64,000 bases of DNA, from the NCBI RefSeq assembly GCF_900106565.1, contig NZ_FNNJ01000002.1:510786-574785 (forward strand). The letters are read 5' to 3'. This stretch comes from Lutibacter oricola (GTDB lineage Bacteria; Bacteroidota; Bacteroidia; Flavobacteriales; Flavobacteriaceae). A model generated the notes under the pieces. That model saw only the letters and a program-made list of their open reading frames with translations. It had not been told where the DNA came from and searched no databases. How positions within the stretch are numbered: position 1 is the stretch's first letter; each line of letters begins with the position of its first letter. Below, one piece after another: positions 25,170-32,597 of the stretch. The position numbers and the translations under genes were made by a program.

Positions 25170-25763
25170 ATGAAATTACAGCAATTACGAGAAGCAATAG
25201 ATGGAACAGATATTTACATATTAGATCAAATTTTAAAGCTTAGATATCAAAAAGCAGGTAAAATATTGGATGCTGGCTGTGGAAGTGGACGAAATTTAAA
25301 ATGGTTTTACAATGCTGGCCATCAGGTTTATGGTATTGATATTAGCTTAGACGATGTAAATTATTGTAAAAAAATATATGATAAAGAAAAATTTAAACAA
25401 GCAAATGTAGATGCTATTCCATTTACAGAAAATAGTTTTGATCACGTTATATGCAATGCCGTATTGCATTTTGCCGAAGATTTAAGCCAGTATTTAAAAA
25501 TGTTAAAAGAATTATTGCGAATATTAAAACCTGGCGGAAGTTTATTTATAAGAATGGCGTCTAATTTTGGTATGGAAAACAATGTTGAACATATAGAAAA
25601 TGGAATTTATAAATTACCTGATGGTTCAACACGATTTTTATTAACGAAAGAATTGTTACAGCATTTAAAACAATCTAAAGAAATTACGTTTTTAGAAACT
25701 GTAAAAACAACAATAGTTGAACATAAAAGATGTATGACGACATTAGTTATAGAAAAGAATTAA
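25170..25763 (+). CDS. class I SAM-dependent methyltransferase
   Basis: 197 residues. Motif I is LDAGCGSGRNLKWF (about 31-44), followed by the acidic loop VYGIDIS, then AIPFTENSFDHVICNAVLHF (motif II region) and LRILKPGGSLFIRM (motif III). It uses S-adenosylmethionine; the acceptor is not evident. The next gene (Dabb) starts 3 nt after its stop, so they are co-transcribed. Confidence 0.9.
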   Translation: MKLQQLREAIDGTDIYILDQILKLRYQKAGKILDAGCGSGRNLKWFYNAGHQVYGIDISLDDVNYCKKIYDKEKFKQANVDAIPFTENSFDHVICNAVLHFAEDLSQYLKMLKELLRILKPGGSLFIRMASNFGMENNVEHIENGIYKLPDGSTRFLLTKELLQHLKQSKEITFLETVKTTIVEHKRCMTTLVIEKN

Positions 25764-25765
25764 AT

Positions 25766-26077
25766 ATGGAAGAAAAATTTATACACTTGGTTTTCTTTTG
25801 GTTAAAGAATCCTGAAAATAAAACAGACAGAACAAAATTTGAAGATGCAATAAATAAATTGGTTGAAACTTCTAAATATGCCAAAAACAATCATATTGGA
25901 ACACCAGCAGCAACAAACAGACCAGTTGTAGATAGCAGTTATACATATTGTTTAAAAGTTACTTTTAATAATATTGAAGAACACGATAAGTATCAAATAG
26001 AGCCAGCACACAAACTTTTTATTGCTGAAGCTTCTAAATTATGGGAGCGTGTATTAATTTACGATTCTGAAATGTAA
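25766..26077 (+). CDS. Dabb (stress-responsive alpha/beta barrel) protein
   Basis: 103 residues from the preferred ATG at 25766 (MEEKFIHLVFFWLK). A longer frame starting at 25730 would overlap the upstream gene by 34 nt and is less likely. The Dabb-type pattern is HLVFFWLKNPENKTDRTKF at the N-terminus and HDKYQIEPAHKLFI at the C-terminus. Members form dimeric ferredoxin-like barrels. Function unknown; paired with a methyltransferase. Confidence 0.85.
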   Translation: MEEKFIHLVFFWLKNPENKTDRTKFEDAINKLVETSKYAKNNHIGTPAATNRPVVDSSYTYCLKVTFNNIEEHDKYQIEPAHKLFIAEASKLWERVLIYDSEM

Positions 26078-26124
26078 TAAAAGGAGTATTCACATACTTC
26101 ACATTTACATTCTAAAAAACTCTA

Positions 26125-26247
26125 TTTAACATAATATAAATTATAATACAAATATACAGTAATTGCTGTATAGCCGTATTTCAGGCTATTTACACATAAT
26201 TGCAGATATAGTGCCTTTAGGTCTATATCGATAGATATTATGTTAAA
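26125..26247. repeat. 123-bp structured inverted-repeat element
   Basis: Perfect 13-bp outer arms TTTAACATAATAT (26125-26137) and ATATTATGTTAAA (26235-26247) enclose three nested hairpins: TACAG/CTGTA (26155-26170), TAGCC/GGCTA (26171-26188), and GATATAG/CTATATC with inner CCT/AGG (26205-26229). The whole can fold as a multibranched, cloverleaf-like unit. It sits in the 223-bp gap between convergent genes and holds no ORF. A mobile miniature element or a structured RNA are both possible. Confidence 0.5.
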
Positions 26248-26300
26248 AGTAATTACGGCTTATGAAGTTCTAATTTTATTTGATAGTTATAATTCGATAT

Positions 26301-27035
26301 TTACCTGTTAAAAGAATTGTTATTTACAAACTCTAAAAACTTTGGTTTGTATTGTTCAGAAACTGTAATGCGTTGGTTATTTATAATAATTTGACTACGT
26401 TCAATTTCTACAATATTTTTTAATGAAACAATAAAAGATCTATGAACTCTCATAAACTGATCTTCGGCAAGTTCATTTTCTAAAGATTTTAAACTCATTA
26501 GTGTTAAAATTGGCTTTGGATTACCTTTTAGCCATATTTTAATATAATCTTTAAGTCCTTCAAAATATAAAACATCTGCCAATTTAATACGCAATTGTTT
26601 GTATTCCGATTTTACAAAAAGAAACTCTTTTTCTTCAGATACAACAGATTTTTGATTTCCTTTAACTAATTCAAACCACTTACTAGCCTTATTGGCTGCA
26701 ACTAAAAACTCAGCATAATCAAAAGGTTTTAACAAATAATCTAAAGCCTCAACTTTTATACCTTCTAATGCATATTGATCAAATGCTGTGGTAAAAATTA
26801 CACGAGTTTCTTTAGGTAGCATTTTAGAAAATTCAATACCTGTTAAATCTGGCATTTGTATGTCTAAAAACAATAAATCAACAGGAGTTTCTTTAATAAA
26901 ATCCATAGCTTCAATAGCACTACTACATTTTTGTTTAAGGTCTAAAAAGGGTGTTTTTTCTACATAACTTTCTACTAAATTTAAAGCCATTGGCTCATCA
27001 TCTACAATAACACAGGTAATTTTTACTTTGCTCAT
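26301..27035 (-). CDS. LytTR-family response regulator
   Basis: 244 residues. The receiver domain (1-120) has Asp12/Asp13, the phosphoacceptor Asp58 in LLFLDIQMPD and the conserved Lys in DYLLKPFDY. The LytTR DNA-binding domain spans about 140-240 (YFEGLKDYIKIWLKG, RVHRSFIVSLKNI). It starts 3 bp after the histidine kinase gene and forms the last gene of the efflux operon. It probably controls the operon it belongs to. Confidence 0.94.
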   Translation of the reverse strand: MSKVKITCVIVDDEPMALNLVESYVEKTPFLDLKQKCSSAIEAMDFIKETPVDLLFLDIQMPDLTGIEFSKMLPKETRVIFTTAFDQYALEGIKVEALDYLLKPFDYAEFLVAANKASKWFELVKGNQKSVVSEEKEFLFVKSEYKQLRIKLADVLYFEGLKDYIKIWLKGNPKPILTLMSLKSLENELAEDQFMRVHRSFIVSLKNIVEIERSQIIINNQRITVSEQYKPKFLEFVNNNSFNR

Positions 27036-27038
27036 AAT

Positions 27039-28070
27039 TTAAGCTGTTTCTATTTCTAAAGTTACTAAAAAACGATCGTCCTTTACTCCTGTTTTAAAGC
27101 TGTATTTATTAGGATATAGTAATTGCAAACGTTTTTCTAAGTTTTGCAAACCAATTCCCGAACCACTTTTATCGTCTGTTTTTTTAGGGAAATTATTGTT
27201 TTCTATGCTAATAAATATCGTTTTGTCTTTGCAAGTCATATTTATTTCAATTTTACTTTCTTTACTTGCCGAAACACCGTGTTTAAAAGCGTTTTCTATT
27301 AAAGAAATAAATAATAAAGGTGCAATTTGAATTGTTGTGTTTTCTGAAGGAAAATTATAACTCACTTCTGTTTTATCAGTTACACGCAATTTCATTAAAG
27401 CAATATATTTTGTCATAAAATCAATTTCTTTAGTAAGAGAAACTAACTCCATATTTGTTTCATAAAGCATATAACGCATTAATTTACTTAAACTATGTAT
27501 GGATGTTTTTGCTTGATCTGGCGAAATATCTACTAACGAATAAATATTATTTAATGAATTAAAAAAGAAATGTGGTTGTAACTGGTAATGCAAATGTTGT
27601 AATTCTGATTGTAACTGAATATTTGCAGCTTCTTTACTTTTAGCTTCAGTTTTTCTCCATTTTTGGGTTGTTTTTAAAGCTATTGAAAAAAGTAAAGGAG
27701 CTAAATATGTTAGCATTTGTATATAAATAAATAGTTTAAAAGGCGGTTTTTTTCCTTCAATATTATTCCCTTTATCAAACAAATTTTCAAAAAAAGTGGT
27801 CTCTATGTATTCTTTTAAAAATAGAAAAAGTGCAATTAACAAAATATTAATTGTAAAAAAACTAATTGTTTTTTTTGTGAAAAACAACTTGTCAATTAAT
27901 ATTAAATAATTGAAATAAAACAGAATTGCACAAAATATCATTGGAATCCAAAAATGAGCTATTGTTCTTTCAACTTCTAGTCCATAAGATAAAATATAAG
28001 GCAAGCCAAACAATACTAACCAAACTAATAGGTGAACTCCAATATTTAGACTTTTTCTATTTGTAAACAT
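27039..28070 (-). CDS. LytS-type sensor histidine kinase
   Basis: 343 residues. The first 135 contain four membrane segments; a short coiled region (140-160) leads to the His_kinase domain with phosphoacceptor His167 in QLQPHFFFNSLNN, and an HATPase domain (ISLIENAFKHG, GSGIGLQNLEKRL). There is no large periplasmic sensor domain, so the signal may be sensed within the membrane. It is located between the MacB-type permease and its response regulator. Confidence 0.93.
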   Translation of the reverse strand: MFTNRKSLNIGVHLLVWLVLFGLPYILSYGLEVERTIAHFWIPMIFCAILFYFNYLILIDKLFFTKKTISFFTINILLIALFLFLKEYIETTFFENLFDKGNNIEGKKPPFKLFIYIQMLTYLAPLLFSIALKTTQKWRKTEAKSKEAANIQLQSELQHLHYQLQPHFFFNSLNNIYSLVDISPDQAKTSIHSLSKLMRYMLYETNMELVSLTKEIDFMTKYIALMKLRVTDKTEVSYNFPSENTTIQIAPLLFISLIENAFKHGVSASKESKIEINMTCKDKTIFISIENNNFPKKTDDKSGSGIGLQNLEKRLQLLYPNKYSFKTGVKDDRFLVTLEIETA

Positions 28071-28082
28071 CTTAAAATTTTA

Positions 28083-29306
28083 TTATTCGTATCTCAATGC
28101 TGTAATTGGGTCTAAAGCTGCTGCTTTTCTAGCTGGATACCATCCGAAAAATATGCCGGTTATGGCGCAAACTGCAAAAGAAATCACTATAGAATATAAG
28201 GCAACACTTGTAGGCCAATGTAAGAAATTTTCTATAAATAAAGTAGCTCCAAGACCTAAAAATACACCTAATAAACCTCCGGTAATACTTATTAAAATTG
28301 CTTCAATTAAAAATTGCATTAAAATATCAGAACCCTTACCTCCTACAGCCATTCGCAATCCAATTTCTTTAGTTCTTTCTTTTACAGAAACATACATAAT
28401 ATTCATAATACCAATACCTCCAATTAGTAATGAAATACCTGCTACAGCTACCAATAATACAGTTAACATTTCACTTGTAGAACTAAATGTTGAAATTAAT
28501 TCTTCCATAGAACGTACTGTAAAATCATCATCTTCAGTATCCAATAATTTATGTTGAGAACGTAAAATTTCAGTAACCTGTATTACTGCTTCGGGTGCAT
28601 CATCTTCACTAATTGCTGAAGCTACAATTTGATTTAAATAATCTATTGCTAAAATACGTTTTTGTACTGTTGTATAAGGTGCAATTACCACATCATCTTG
28701 ATCTTGGCCAAAGGTATTTTCACCTTTTTCTTCTAAAACACCAATAACTTTAAAAGGAATATTATTAAAACGAATCATTTGTCCTACTGGTTCCTCACCA
28801 TCAGGAAATACATTATCTACAACCGTTTGCCCAATTAAAGCTACTTTAGCGGCCGAATTAACTTCAGTATCTGTAAACATACTTCCGCTTTGTAAATCCA
28901 CTACTTTTATATTAAGGTATTCTGGATTTACACCGTAAATAGTACTTGGCCAGTTGTTAGAACCGTTAATAACTTGCCCACCACCATTAACCATTGGTGT
29001 TATATAGCTTATTAAATTAGTGGTTTGTTCTTTTATTTTTTCATAATCTTTAAAAGTTAGTGTTTGTACGTTACCACCACTACCTCTAGCCGGACCTCTA
29101 TCATCTGCTCCTGGTCTAATGGTTATCATATTAGAACCCATACTTGAAATTGTTGTACGAATACTTTCTTTTGAACCTTCACCAATAGCTAACATTGCAA
29201 TTACTGAAGCTACTCCAATAATAATACCCAACATAGTAAGCAATGTTCTTGTTTTATTAAGAATTATTGCTTTATATGCAATTTTAAATAAATTTAATAG
29301 TCTCAT
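28083..29306 (-). CDS. MacB-type ABC transporter permease
   Basis: 407 residues. A first membrane helix (about 20-45: TRTLLTMLGIIIGVASVIAM), a MacB periplasmic domain (50-270) and three C-terminal helices with an FtsX domain (LLVAVAGISLLIGGIGIMNI, then KERTKEIGLRMAVG). Unlike E. coli MacB, the ATPase is a separate protein (29309-30052). It drives substrate from the periplasm through the MacA/TolC pair. Confidence 0.93.
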   Translation of the reverse strand: MRLLNLFKIAYKAIILNKTRTLLTMLGIIIGVASVIAMLAIGEGSKESIRTTISSMGSNMITIRPGADDRGPARGSGGNVQTLTFKDYEKIKEQTTNLISYITPMVNGGGQVINGSNNWPSTIYGVNPEYLNIKVVDLQSGSMFTDTEVNSAAKVALIGQTVVDNVFPDGEEPVGQMIRFNNIPFKVIGVLEEKGENTFGQDQDDVVIAPYTTVQKRILAIDYLNQIVASAISEDDAPEAVIQVTEILRSQHKLLDTEDDDFTVRSMEELISTFSSTSEMLTVLLVAVAGISLLIGGIGIMNIMYVSVKERTKEIGLRMAVGGKGSDILMQFLIEAILISITGGLLGVFLGLGATLFIENFLHWPTSVALYSIVISFAVCAITGIFFGWYPARKAAALDPITALRYE

Positions 29307-29308
29307 AA

Positions 29309-30052
29309 TTAATTGTCTTGTTTAGGTAATTTGGCTAATTCTACTGCTGCAGATTGAATATTGTCATTTTTATAATCTTGAATTATATTTCCATCTTTTA
29401 ACACAATGGTTCTACTACTAAATTCTGCAATATCAGGCTCGTGAGTTACAAAAGTTATGGTAATTCCTTTTTTATTTAAATCTTGAAATAAAGACATAAT
29501 TTCGTAAGATGTACGCGTATCTAAATTACCTGTAGCCTCATCTGCTAATATCATTACAGGATTGTTTACAAGAGATCTTGCAATTGCTACACGTTGTTGT
29601 TGTCCACCAGAAAGTTGGGCCGGTGTATGATCCATTCTTTCCTCTAAACCAACCATTTTTAAAGCTTTAATTGCGCGTTCTCTTCGTTCTTCAGTAGAAA
29701 CTTTACTGTTGTATAATAAAGGTAATTCTACGTTTTCAATAGCCGAAGTTCTGGCCAGTAAGTTGTATGATTGAAAAATAAATCCAATTTTTTCATTTCT
29801 AATAGTAGCCAACTCATTTCTGCTCAAATCTTTTACGCTTACATTGTCTATTTCGTAAGTTCCAGAAGTTGGCTGATCTAAACATCCTAAGATATTTAAC
29901 ATGGTACTTTTTCCTGAACCACTTGAACCCATAATGGTTACAAATTCGCCTTCTTCAATGCCAAACGAAATTCCTCTAAGTGCATGAACCGTTTCAGTTC
30001 CCATAGTAAAATCACGCTTTAAGTCATTAATTTTTATAATTTCTTTCTTCAT
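29309..30052 (-). CDS. MacB/LolD-type ABC transporter ATP-binding protein
   Basis: 247 residues. Walker [10 protein letters not shown] (42-50), signature LSGGQQQR (147-154) and Walker [13 protein letters not shown] (168-179) are all intact. It is close to the MacB/LolD/FtsE group and starts 2 bp before its permease partner. It powers the efflux complex encoded by the same operon. Confidence 0.95.
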
Positions 30053-30058
30053 AATATC

Positions 30059-31255
30059 CTATTTTTTTCCTGGTGGTTTTGGCATAAATGGACTTTCGCC
30101 TGCTCCTTTTGGTCCAGCTTCGGCTCTAGAAAGCCCTTTTAAACTATAAACTAATTTTTCACCTTCATCTACTCCACTTAAAATTTGCACATTAACACCA
30201 TCGCTCGCTCCTATTGTTACTTTTTTTGAAGTTATACTTTTATCGTTACCTAAAACCCAAAGTGTTGTTTTATTTTTTGAAGTAGTATTAGAAACTGCTG
30301 GTAAATTATGATGTGTATTATACAATGCTAAAGTTTCTGTTTCTGGCTTAAAGTTTATAGCTTTAGCTTCGGTAGTTAAAACATTTTTTAATTCTAGTGT
30401 ATAAATTGAAATTGTTGCTGTTAAACCTGGTTTTAATTTTAAATCTGGATTATCAGCTTTAATAACCACCGTATATGTAACTACGTTAGATGATATTGTT
30501 GGGTCTAAACGTACTTGTGTAACTACACCTTCAAAGGTTTCACCTAAATATGCGTCTACAGTAAATGTAACGCGTTGACCATCTTTTACATTTCCTATAT
30601 CGGCTTCATCAACATCAGCTTCTACTTGCATTTCTTTTAAATCTTGAGCAATAGTAAAAAGTGTTGGTGTACTATAACTTGCAGCAACTGTTTGCCCTTC
30701 ATCAATATCTCTAGAAAGTACAACACCATCTATTGGAGCATATATATTAGCGTAACTTAAATTAGTTCTTGCTTTTTGAAGATCTGATAAACGTTGAGTT
30801 ACTGAACCTTTTGCAGTTTGAAGTTCATAAAGAGCGTCATCAAAATCAGATTTACTAATTACCTGATTTTCAAACAATTTCTTTTGTCTATCATAAATAT
30901 TTTGAAGGTAGTTTTTTTGAACAATAGCATTATCGTAAAATGCTTGTGCATTATTTCTTGTAGCAATTAGATTTGTTTTATCTAACTCGGCAATTAACTG
31001 CCCTTCTTTAACTTCGCTATTATAATCTACATATATTTTTTCCACAACTCCTGAAACCTGTGTACCAACATCAACCTGATTAATAGGCTCTATGGTTCCT
31101 GTTGCTGTAACCAGTGTTGTTACATCTGATTTTTTTGCTGTTATTGTTTTAGGTTCAATTATAACGGCTTCATCGCTATTTATAAAACTGTATGATGCAA
31201 TTGCAATTAGAGCAATTACAACACTTCCTATAATTATTTTTGTTTTTGTTTTCAT
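30059..31255 (-). CDS. MacA-type periplasmic adaptor (membrane fusion protein)
   Basis: 398 residues. An N-terminal membrane anchor (KIIIGSVVIALIAIASYSFI) precedes a biotinyl-lipoyl region (DVGTQVSGVVEKIYVDYNSE), a helical hairpin (about 95-165), a beta-barrel domain and a membrane-proximal domain with a short Pro-rich tail. It bridges the inner-membrane ABC unit and the outer-membrane TolC channel. It starts 10 bp after the TolC-family gene. Confidence 0.94.
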   Translation of the reverse strand: MKTKTKIIIGSVVIALIAIASYSFINSDEAVIIEPKTITAKKSDVTTLVTATGTIEPINQVDVGTQVSGVVEKIYVDYNSEVKEGQLIAELDKTNLIATRNNAQAFYDNAIVQKNYLQNIYDRQKKLFENQVISKSDFDDALYELQTAKGSVTQRLSDLQKARTNLSYANIYAPIDGVVLSRDIDEGQTVAASYSTPTLFTIAQDLKEMQVEADVDEADIGNVKDGQRVTFTVDAYLGETFEGVVTQVRLDPTISSNVVTYTVVIKADNPDLKLKPGLTATISIYTLELKNVLTTEAKAINFKPETETLALYNTHHNLPAVSNTTSKNKTTLWVLGNDKSITSKKVTIGASDGVNVQILSGVDEGEKLVYSLKGLSRAEAGPKGAGESPFMPKPPGKK

Positions 31256-31265
31256 TTTTAATTAA

Positions 31266-32597
31266 TTAAAGTTTAATATCGTTTCCTTGGTAAAATTGTA
31301 GTAATTGGTGGTACAAAATATTTAAGTATTTAGCTTGCAAATAGTTTTGTTGTGCATTGGTATATGTGTTTTGACTAATCACTAAATCAGTTGTACTTAA
31401 ATCTCCCAATTCGTATTTTTTTTGTGCAAGTTTATAGCTTTGTGCTGCGGCTACTTTTGAAGCTTCTGAAGCAATAACTTGTTCTTGAGCAGATAGTGCA
31501 TTTTGATAGGCCGTTTCTACTTTTTTATAAACCGTTTTCTCTGTAGTTTGCTTTTGAATTTCAGCTTTTTTAATATTGATAGTAGCGGTTTGTACGGCTG
31601 CTTTTGTTTTATTTTTGTTGAAAATTGGAATACTTAATGATAAACCTAATTTTTGATTGAAATTTAAATCGAACTGATCTGAAAACGAGCTATCTGTAAT
31701 ACTTGTATAACCAGAACCTAAGCTACCAGATAATGATAAAGTTGGTAAAAAACCACCTTTTGCTATATCTAATTCCTTTTCATTTGCTTCAATATTTAAA
31801 TTACTAGCTTTAATTTCTGGCAAGTATTCCAATGCATTTTTATACACTTCTGTTTTGTTAAGATTTAGATTTACCAAATCCAAATTTTCATTTATGGTTT
31901 CAATTTGCATATCTTCCATAAAAGGTAACTCCAATAACTGTTTTAGATCTATTATATATTGCTGATACTCATTTTTTGAAGAAATAACATTGTATTTGTT
32001 AGTAGCAGCTTGGCTTTGCGCTTCAGTATAATCACTTAAAGTTATGGTTCCAGCATCTAAACGAGCTTTAGCTCTAAGTACTTCTTTTTCTGAAGCTTCT
32101 AAATTGTTTTTAGCAATAGAAATGTTTTCTTTACTATATAAAGTCTGTAAATAGGTTTCTAAAATATTAAGAACAATATTATTTTTTTCTACTTCTTCTT
32201 CAAAAATACTTTGCTCAAGCAGTAATTTGTTTTGTTTAATTTGGTTGCTTATTTGCTTACCCTGAAACAATGTTATGGAACTATTAATGCCAACATTTGT
32301 ACTGTTTACTTGATCTGTAACATAATCGCTTGTAATAGGGTCTATTGTATTTCCACTTGAAAAACTTTGAGATGCACTTCCAAATAAATCGGGTAATCTA
32401 GATGATTTCGCCTTGCTATAATCAACTTGTGCAATATCTTTACTTAGTGTAGCATCTTTAATTGAAATATTGTTTTCTAAAGCATAATTAATACAATCTT
32501 CTAAAGACCATATTTTTTGAGTAGTATTTATTGAAGTTTCTTGTGCAAAAGTAAATTGCATAAATAGTAAACTTGCAATAATTATTTTTAGTTTCAT
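31266..32597 (-). CDS. TolC-family outer-membrane efflux protein
   Basis: 443 residues with a signal peptide ending around TFAQE. Two related halves (about 30-235 and 240-440) with long amphipathic helices form the TolC barrel-tunnel; WSLEDCINYALENNISIKDA at the N-terminus is the common first motif. It is the first gene of the six-gene operon 32597-26301 and provides the outer-membrane exit. Confidence 0.93.
   Translation of the reverse strand: MKLKIIIASLLFMQFTFAQETSINTTQKIWSLEDCINYALENNISIKDATLSKDIAQVDYSKAKSSRLPDLFGSASQSFSSGNTIDPITSDYVTDQVNSTNVGINSSITLFQGKQISNQIKQNKLLLEQSIFEEEVEKNNIVLNILETYLQTLYSKENISIAKNNLEASEKEVLRAKARLDAGTITLSDYTEAQSQAATNKYNVISSKNEYQQYIIDLKQLLELPFMEDMQIETINENLDLVNLNLNKTEVYKNALEYLPEIKASNLNIEANEKELDIAKGGFLPTLSLSGSLGSGYTSITDSSFSDQFDLNFNQKLGLSLSIPIFNKNKTKAAVQTATINIKKAEIQKQTTEKTVYKKVETAYQNALSAQEQVIASEASKVAAAQSYKLAQKKYELGDLSTTDLVISQNTYTNAQQNYLQAKYLNILYHQLLQFYQGNDIKL

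Follow-up and report, generated by a model that had tools for sequence, protein, structure and literature searches.

The dif site of Lutibacter oricola adjoins a covarying folded module, the likely head of a Xer-dependent mobile cassette

Background

IMEXs include phages, plasmids and islands, as outlined in PMC5357621 and PMC9765430. In the account of CTXphi given in PMC4246890, attP(+) is formed by inverted sites with 12-bp and 5-7 bp centres, catalysis is by XerC only and insertion is irreversible. In the Bacteroidetes, dif sites have been predicted for 19 genomes (PMC3025954), and microvirus-like proviruses and PhiCjT23-like prophages are described as using dif (PMC3091885, PMC9719478).

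Here we analyzed a stretch of 64,000 nucleotides (the window) of Lutibacter oricola, in which dif is followed by a folded module (the “head”), relatives of which lie at dif or behind a “tail” motif, with cargo genes between successive heads. It is likely, in our judgement, that a mobile cassette, Xer-dependent and with no integrase, contributed the head, which is joined to the XerC side of the host dif. As far as these sources describe them, CTX-type IMEXs (CTXphi attP1/attP2; PMC4246890, PMC5357621) share with the cassettes: i) dif integration on the XerC side; and ii) a long centre at the junction site and no recombinase of their own. Their pair of inverted dif-like sites, able to fold within a single strand, may have a counterpart here at some heads (36 of 121 under a strict pattern, the window copy not being one of them). 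Unlike these filamentous phages, the cassettes carry defence and metabolic genes, place a conserved three-way-junction head between the sites and have a presumed dependence on Xer; the proteins scanned contained no phage structural family. VGJphi, TLCphi, the gonococcal genetic island and EludIMEX-1 (PMC4246890, PMC5357621) employ host Xer at dif, as the present cassettes would, and the islands among them have non-phage cargo; in contrast to these single large islands or phages, as they are described, the present system has a folded head and many small stacked cassettes. The dif proviruses of Bacteroidetes agree in phylum and target, and some are described with an extra dif-like sequence near one end; however, they carry capsid and replication genes, none of which occurred in the cassette proteins scanned here.

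The pdif modules of Acinetobacter plasmids (see PMC7399989) are also accessory genes flanked by Xer sites and thought to be moved by host XerCD, yet they are plasmid-borne with simple Xer sites, whereas here the location is chromosomal dif and the head is folded. Integron attC cassettes, as generally understood, resemble the present ones in lacking an integrase in the cassette, in using a folded site and in having the newest cassette at the entry point (as would be the case here); on the other hand, the entry site here is dif, the cassettes are 3.7-10.6 kb long and mostly multigene, and the site architecture is different. An integron itself consists of an IntI integrase with attI and attC sites. 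We know of no folded head in pdif modules. Among the titles and abstracts listed in literature searches, mostly of open-access papers, none described cargo cassettes with a folded head at Bacteroidota dif, which counts as weak evidence that no such description exists. The IMEX traits found here are a dif-like site, a location at dif (79 of 121 heads, and the window head too) and no recombinase of its own; judged on these features, the system would be filed under the IMEX kind, with an integron-like logic and a putative dependence on Xer.

Results and discussion

On the minus strand, positions 26124-26151 of the window read TTGTATTATAA TTTATA TTATGTTAAAT, which is the layout of a bacterial dif: an XerC arm (26141-26151), a 6-bp centre (26135-26140) and an XerD arm (26124-26134) identical to the XerD arm of E. 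coli dif. In a two-arm scan of the window, every other place with at most one XerD mismatch had at least six XerC mismatches, and the site is single copy in the genome. A dif-like 28-mer (at most one mismatch in the XerD arm and three in the XerC arm) was present in 33 of 40 relative loci, the other seven including split or flanking stretches. The site is at 536.9 kb of the contig, ~37 kb from the peak of the cumulative GC skew (~500 kb, a noisy plateau in the 400 kb sampled), and a search of the genome with an XerD model returned one match over the curated cut-off plus a second strong Xer match below it. Layout conservation in relatives and proximity to the GC-skew peak thus identify 26124-26151, by its sequence, as the chromosomal dif site. 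Its XerD-side neighbour is a Dabb-domain gene (25769-26077, plus strand; Pfam Dabb), and the first gene on the XerC side, outside the element, encodes a LytTR response regulator (26301-27035, minus strand; Pfam Response_reg and LytTR). The latter belongs to an operon-like series on the minus strand (26301-32597) in which the LytTR response regulator is accompanied by histidine kinase, MacB-like permease, ABC ATPase, HlyD-type fusion protein and outer-membrane efflux protein.

The initial annotation had regarded 26125-26247 as one 123-bp unit of nested inverted repeats. The perfect 13-bp arms (26125-26137 and 26235-26247) are indeed present, as are the inner stems TATACAG/CTGTATA (26153-26159/26166-26172), AGCC/GGCT (its first base being common to the preceding stem) and GATATAG/CTATATC. 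Folded as RNA, the plus strand of 26115-26257 reached -33.8 kcal/mol versus -19.5 ± 3.1 for 200 shuffles (z -4.64); z was -2.60 for the minus strand and -3.25 under DNA parameters. However, the unit divides in two, with dif supplying the left arm and a distinct module, the head, making up the rest. The outer arms match each other because both are XerD arms. Compensation in the stems, proposed earlier as the check, held for the inner stems and failed for the outer arms: at the informative half-site position 26244, the inner partner 26192 pairs in 38 of 40 dif-adjacent copies and the outer partner in only 19 of 40, and over all ten half-site positions the inner partner scores 383/400 versus 366/400 for the dif XerD arm, a closer result. 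The outer 13-bp stem was therefore rejected as a conserved structure in favour of the inner pairing, and the nesting with it. Perfect 13-bp inverted repeats with a gap of 3-110 nt occur at 10 places in the 64-kb window (mean of 0.85 in 20 shuffles), so that a single such pair is unusual there, not unique. The element has one copy in the 4.12-Mb genome (the runner-up match being 44 nt at 78%), which rules out the suggested miniature inverted-repeat element, since that needs several copies. That the structure is more than a terminator was borne out: no terminator-like site was detected in 25700-26700, and a conserved covarying fold exists.

The head (26141-26262, plus strand) starts with the XerC arm and was delimited via a match to R1, two alignments (A1 and A2) and covariation. 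R1, a structural model of the head that includes the XerC arm and excludes the XerD arm and the tail, matched the window at 26141-26266 with 143 bits, having been built partly from the window copy. In A1 (sixteen copies found via DNA similarity, window included, aligned by sequence), a three-way junction of 36 pairs, drawn by eye on copies that joined A1 before the pairs were counted, had 96.8% of cells paired (90.0 ± 0.6 in shuffled alignments), 12 pairs changed on both sides (4.8 shuffled) and a covariation of 0.175 (0.053 shuffled); none of the 500 shuffles reached these values, and RNAalifold, unaided, drew a nearly identical fold. A2 consisted of the window copy and 48 others that A1 lacks (a single copy from each locus, at least 75 bits; L086 and three second heads excluded), and it leans towards the R1 fold because 46 of the 48 came from R1-found loci. 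In this set 88.5% of cells were paired; two-sided changes numbered 221 cells, versus 69.8 ± 7.9 after shuffling and no more than 55 in slid controls. A conserved module with a covarying three-way-junction fold is thus well supported.

The module has four stems, all on the plus strand: S1 (26159-26166 with 26249-26256; 78.8% of A2 cells paired and all 8 pairs compensated), S2 (26171-26175 with 26184-26188; the weakest, 66.7%), S3 (26189-26203 with 26234-26247; one bulged base, 95.6%, six compensated pairs) and S4 (26205-26211 with 26223-26229, and a tip of 26214-26215/26220-26221; 97.2%). S3 contains an XerD arm in duplex (TTTA(C)ACATAA / TTATGTTAAA), and its core is nearly invariant while the pairs above the core vary with compensation; in the window copy two mismatches lie near its top (26201/26236 and 26202/26235). 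The 5' strand of S4 has a weak likeness to an XerC arm (7 of 11 positions by eye). Both strands of the head fold as DNA, modestly so for the window head alone (z -2.65 and -1.98) compared with the G002 head (z -5.46 and -6.55).

A DNA search of 100 relatives matched mostly the dif part only, and the part right of dif recurred at ~85-97% identity in several same-genus genomes; in G034, G011 and G042 (another genus) the head was found twice on one contig, 6-8 kb apart. At dif the junction reads ATTTAACATAATATAAA followed by TTATAATACAA-head, and at non-dif copies it reads CAAAGCAAAGTAACATAACGC(T/AG)AACA followed by TTATAATACAA-head. Hence a conserved tail (ending in AAGTTACATAACGCAGAACA) replaces the XerD side of dif, i.e., XerD arm and centre, with XerC arm and head kept, which would be the product expected of an exchange at the XerC-arm border. 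A tail-profile search of 41 sources recovered 20 junctions at E <= 2e-5, seven of them the profile seeds; it returned no junction in the window.

R1 detected heads in 117 of 299 family genomes and 101 of 236 genera (E <= 0.01), and across the class in 11 of 247 genomes (E <= 0.001), three from the same family (the window's own genome included) and eight from four other families. Of 146 model matches, 25 (24 and 1) were set aside for being weak, overlapping, in tandem, at a contig edge or split by an insertion, leaving 121 copies: 79 adjoin dif, 28 follow a tail junction and 14 do neither, at least eight of the last being second heads in tandem. In R1-found loci only, 88 of 101 heads are at dif or a tail. 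Tandem heads without cargo, 100-330 nt apart, were seen at L160:1501-1826, L190:6891-7453, L191:6344-6821, L193:6977-7320 and L093:10113-10567, and look like stacked empty cassettes. Moreover, the dif-adjacent heads of L076, L078, L085, L089 and L098 (several same-genus genomes) are interrupted or immediately followed by a small inserted repeat, CGACTTTAGGAGATTC-like or closely similar, and both heads of L073 (7769-8032 and 13742-14005) contain the same ~130-nt insertion with inverted ends AGGAGGCTGTCTGAAAAG / CTTTTTAGACAGCCTCC.

Could the head instead be a structured RNA, such as a small RNA or leader whose gene adjoins dif and is carried along by insertions? A covarying three-way junction with G-U pairs would suit an RNA, and RNA parameters give the plus strand a stronger fold than its complement. 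Yet 107 of the 121 heads begin exactly at a Xer junction (dif or tail), the best conserved stem contains a duplexed XerD arm with a nearly invariant core, both strands fold as DNA, and no Rfam family reached threshold in the window (the best match over the element scored 20.6 bits against a cut-off of 60). We therefore regard an RNA as unlikely. Of the structured RNA put forward in the initial annotation, the conserved fold stands and the RNA identity does not find a family; a DNA recombination site is the better match for a module whose place, next to cassette junctions or the XerC arm of dif, is fixed.

Between heads, 18 intervals (among them L186, L192 and L093, in which the second head is weak or atypical) measured 3,729-10,582 bp (median of 6,447) and contained 73 ORFs of at least 80 aa, of which 39 were scanned with Pfam, eight with PADLOC and ten with PHROGs. 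The cargo recognized via Pfam/PADLOC included an Eco57I-type methylase (L174); an MvaI/BcnI endonuclease, a C5 methylase and a SIR2-STAND protein (L072); Avs4 (L176); a PDC-S60 metallophosphatase-STAND (L093); a metallophosphatase with NACHT (L182); KAP NTPases (L181 and L183); Roc-COR with LRR (L178); multi-ubiquitin, ThiF and AbiEii (L192); RND and cation efflux (L188); ABC export (L177); arginase and deoxyhypusine synthase (L175); cyclomaltodextrinase and PfkB (L073); a flavin oxidoreductase (L074); and T9SS-sorted proteins (L187). In L192 (6351-8673) the ThiF-family and multi-ubiquitin proteins share one cassette, a pair that presumably resembles ubiquitin-like bacterial defence operons.

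None of the 73 cassette ORFs was a host Xer-like protein (the positive control worked), and among the 39 scanned with Pfam no recombinase or transposase family appeared save one Arm-DNA-binding domain. That domain, usual in tyrosine recombinases, is fused to the L072 methylase and, together with an L183 ORF that matches PHROG excisionase/regulator families, points against an integrase-free reading. A second alternative is that the head is the attachment site of an ssDNA phage (microvirus-, inovirus- or FLiP-like) integrated at dif, with the cargo being satellites or derivatives. As described, such prophages use dif in Bacteroidetes (PMC3091885, PMC9719478), and the geometry resembles that of CTXphi attP (PMC4246890); but no phage structural or replication family was found in the 39 of 73 proteins scanned with Pfam or the ten scanned with PHROGs, and the tail-head junction query matched none of 50,697 phage records and, as an exact pattern, no viral contig. 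Such a phage origin thus seems rather improbable, even a little more so than an RNA.

Conservation around dif is asymmetric. On the XerD side, the window's MFS, methyltransferase or Dabb gene lies within 1.1 kb of dif in 25 of the 32 relative loci with a dif detected by script. On the XerC side, any of five tested window genes is kept in only 3 of 32, a count that includes several loci with little sequence there (e.g., L078, L097, L098, L094 and L108) and one mis-oriented locus (L083). The response regulator is separated from dif by 0.18 kb in the window, but by 3.0 kb (L076) and 5.4 kb (L069) in two relative loci. Moreover, in a comparison of 12 heads, the G030 head (same genus) matched that of G168 (other genus) at 96% identity and the five other same-genus heads at 86-93%; between G001 and G005 the XerD-side flank is 91% and the head 88% identical, and XerD-side flanks between genera are 43-60% identical. 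This contrast of head and flank identities would fit exchange between genera, part of which strong constraint on the head could explain. No empty/filled pair with both insertion ends was found, and in L069, L076 and L071 neither a tail nor an old head was seen to adjoin the response regulator, so that the insertion ends rest on stacked copies. Searches of viral contigs, phages and plasmids (one pattern or 396-base query each) returned no free or circular form.

In a third alternative, the head is non-mobile, double-stranded accessory DNA of the host dif that serves dimer resolution in a cer/psi-like manner. Plasmid cer and psi sites have accessory DNA beside them on the XerC side, and the head lies on that side of dif too. 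Nevertheless, 182 of the 299 family genomes have no R1 match at E <= 0.01, heads also occur kilobases from dif after tails, and the compensated pairs point to a single-stranded fold, all of which makes this alternative very improbable. Finally, inverted repeats that arose by chance where the DNA is AT-rich, a MITE, and a cruciform or terminator can be dismissed almost entirely: although the region is AT-rich and the window has its 10 perfect short-gap 13-bp repeats, the element is single copy and has no terminator-like site, and the covariation contradicts these readings.

A mobile cassette head fused to dif, the reading that we prefer, draws further on sites beyond the head. Under a strict pattern, 36 of the 121 heads had an inverted dif-like site downstream, although by eye at least two of these look spurious; read with the arms used here, most of these sites have a 7-bp centre. 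In the predicted ssDNA fold of the natural tail-head junction of L074, the XerD and XerC arms of the junction pair with the inverted site, with the head inside. Base 6 of the XerC arm agrees with its partner in 46 of 52 cases (Fisher p 1.4e-4, not corrected for relatedness). The predicted fold has the same geometry as CTXphi attP(+), as described in PMC4246890.

The window copy is simpler. It holds the head only, with cargo, tail and intact inverted site absent, and the strict inverted-site pattern has no match in the window. At 26279-26294 (plus strand) there is a remnant of an inverted dif-like site (TTTGATAGTTATAATT), recognized by comparison with intact sites (L069 and others), of which only the XerC-like part is present; its XerD part has degenerated, and at 26301 lies the end of the response-regulator gene. 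Because only the head remains, the window copy is probably a remnant that has lost its cargo and tail.

The anatomy of dif, head, tail and cargo is well supported; Xer dependence, a circular form and an ssDNA step are what we infer from it. The best reading is that the cassettes are IMEX-like and integron-like, entering at dif via host XerC, with the newest beside dif. A cassette circle, single or double stranded, would join the tail (XerD-like arm and 8-9 bp centre) to the head (XerC arm). Host XerC would then exchange strands between this tail-head junction and dif at the XerC-arm border, a crossover position deduced from junction sequences, and replication would resolve the exchange intermediate. 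Insertion would restore a good dif on the left and leave a poor, long-centred site on the right, and therefore the newest cassette would adjoin dif and stay. After some heads, the inverted dif-like sites may enable one strand by itself to form a substrate for Xer, in the manner of the CTX phage; since both head strands fold as DNA, the acting strand could be either.

Conclusions

A wider proposal, slightly less likely than not, is that Bacteroidota run an integrase-free integron, in which dif is the entry, host XerC the enzyme and the folded ssDNA head the mobile site, and stacks of defence and niche genes build up at the terminus; it would extend over some hundred sampled genera in one family, and further still. 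If this holds, compatibility alleles would be set by the hypervariable compensated bases that lie just above the folded XerD arm. More generally, the cassettes would provide a natural case between Xer/dif recombination and integrons, and the use by Xer of folded single-stranded sites outside phages becomes directly testable. The covariance model, the tail motif and dif together offer a sequence handle for accessory and defence cassettes in a major, mostly marine family.
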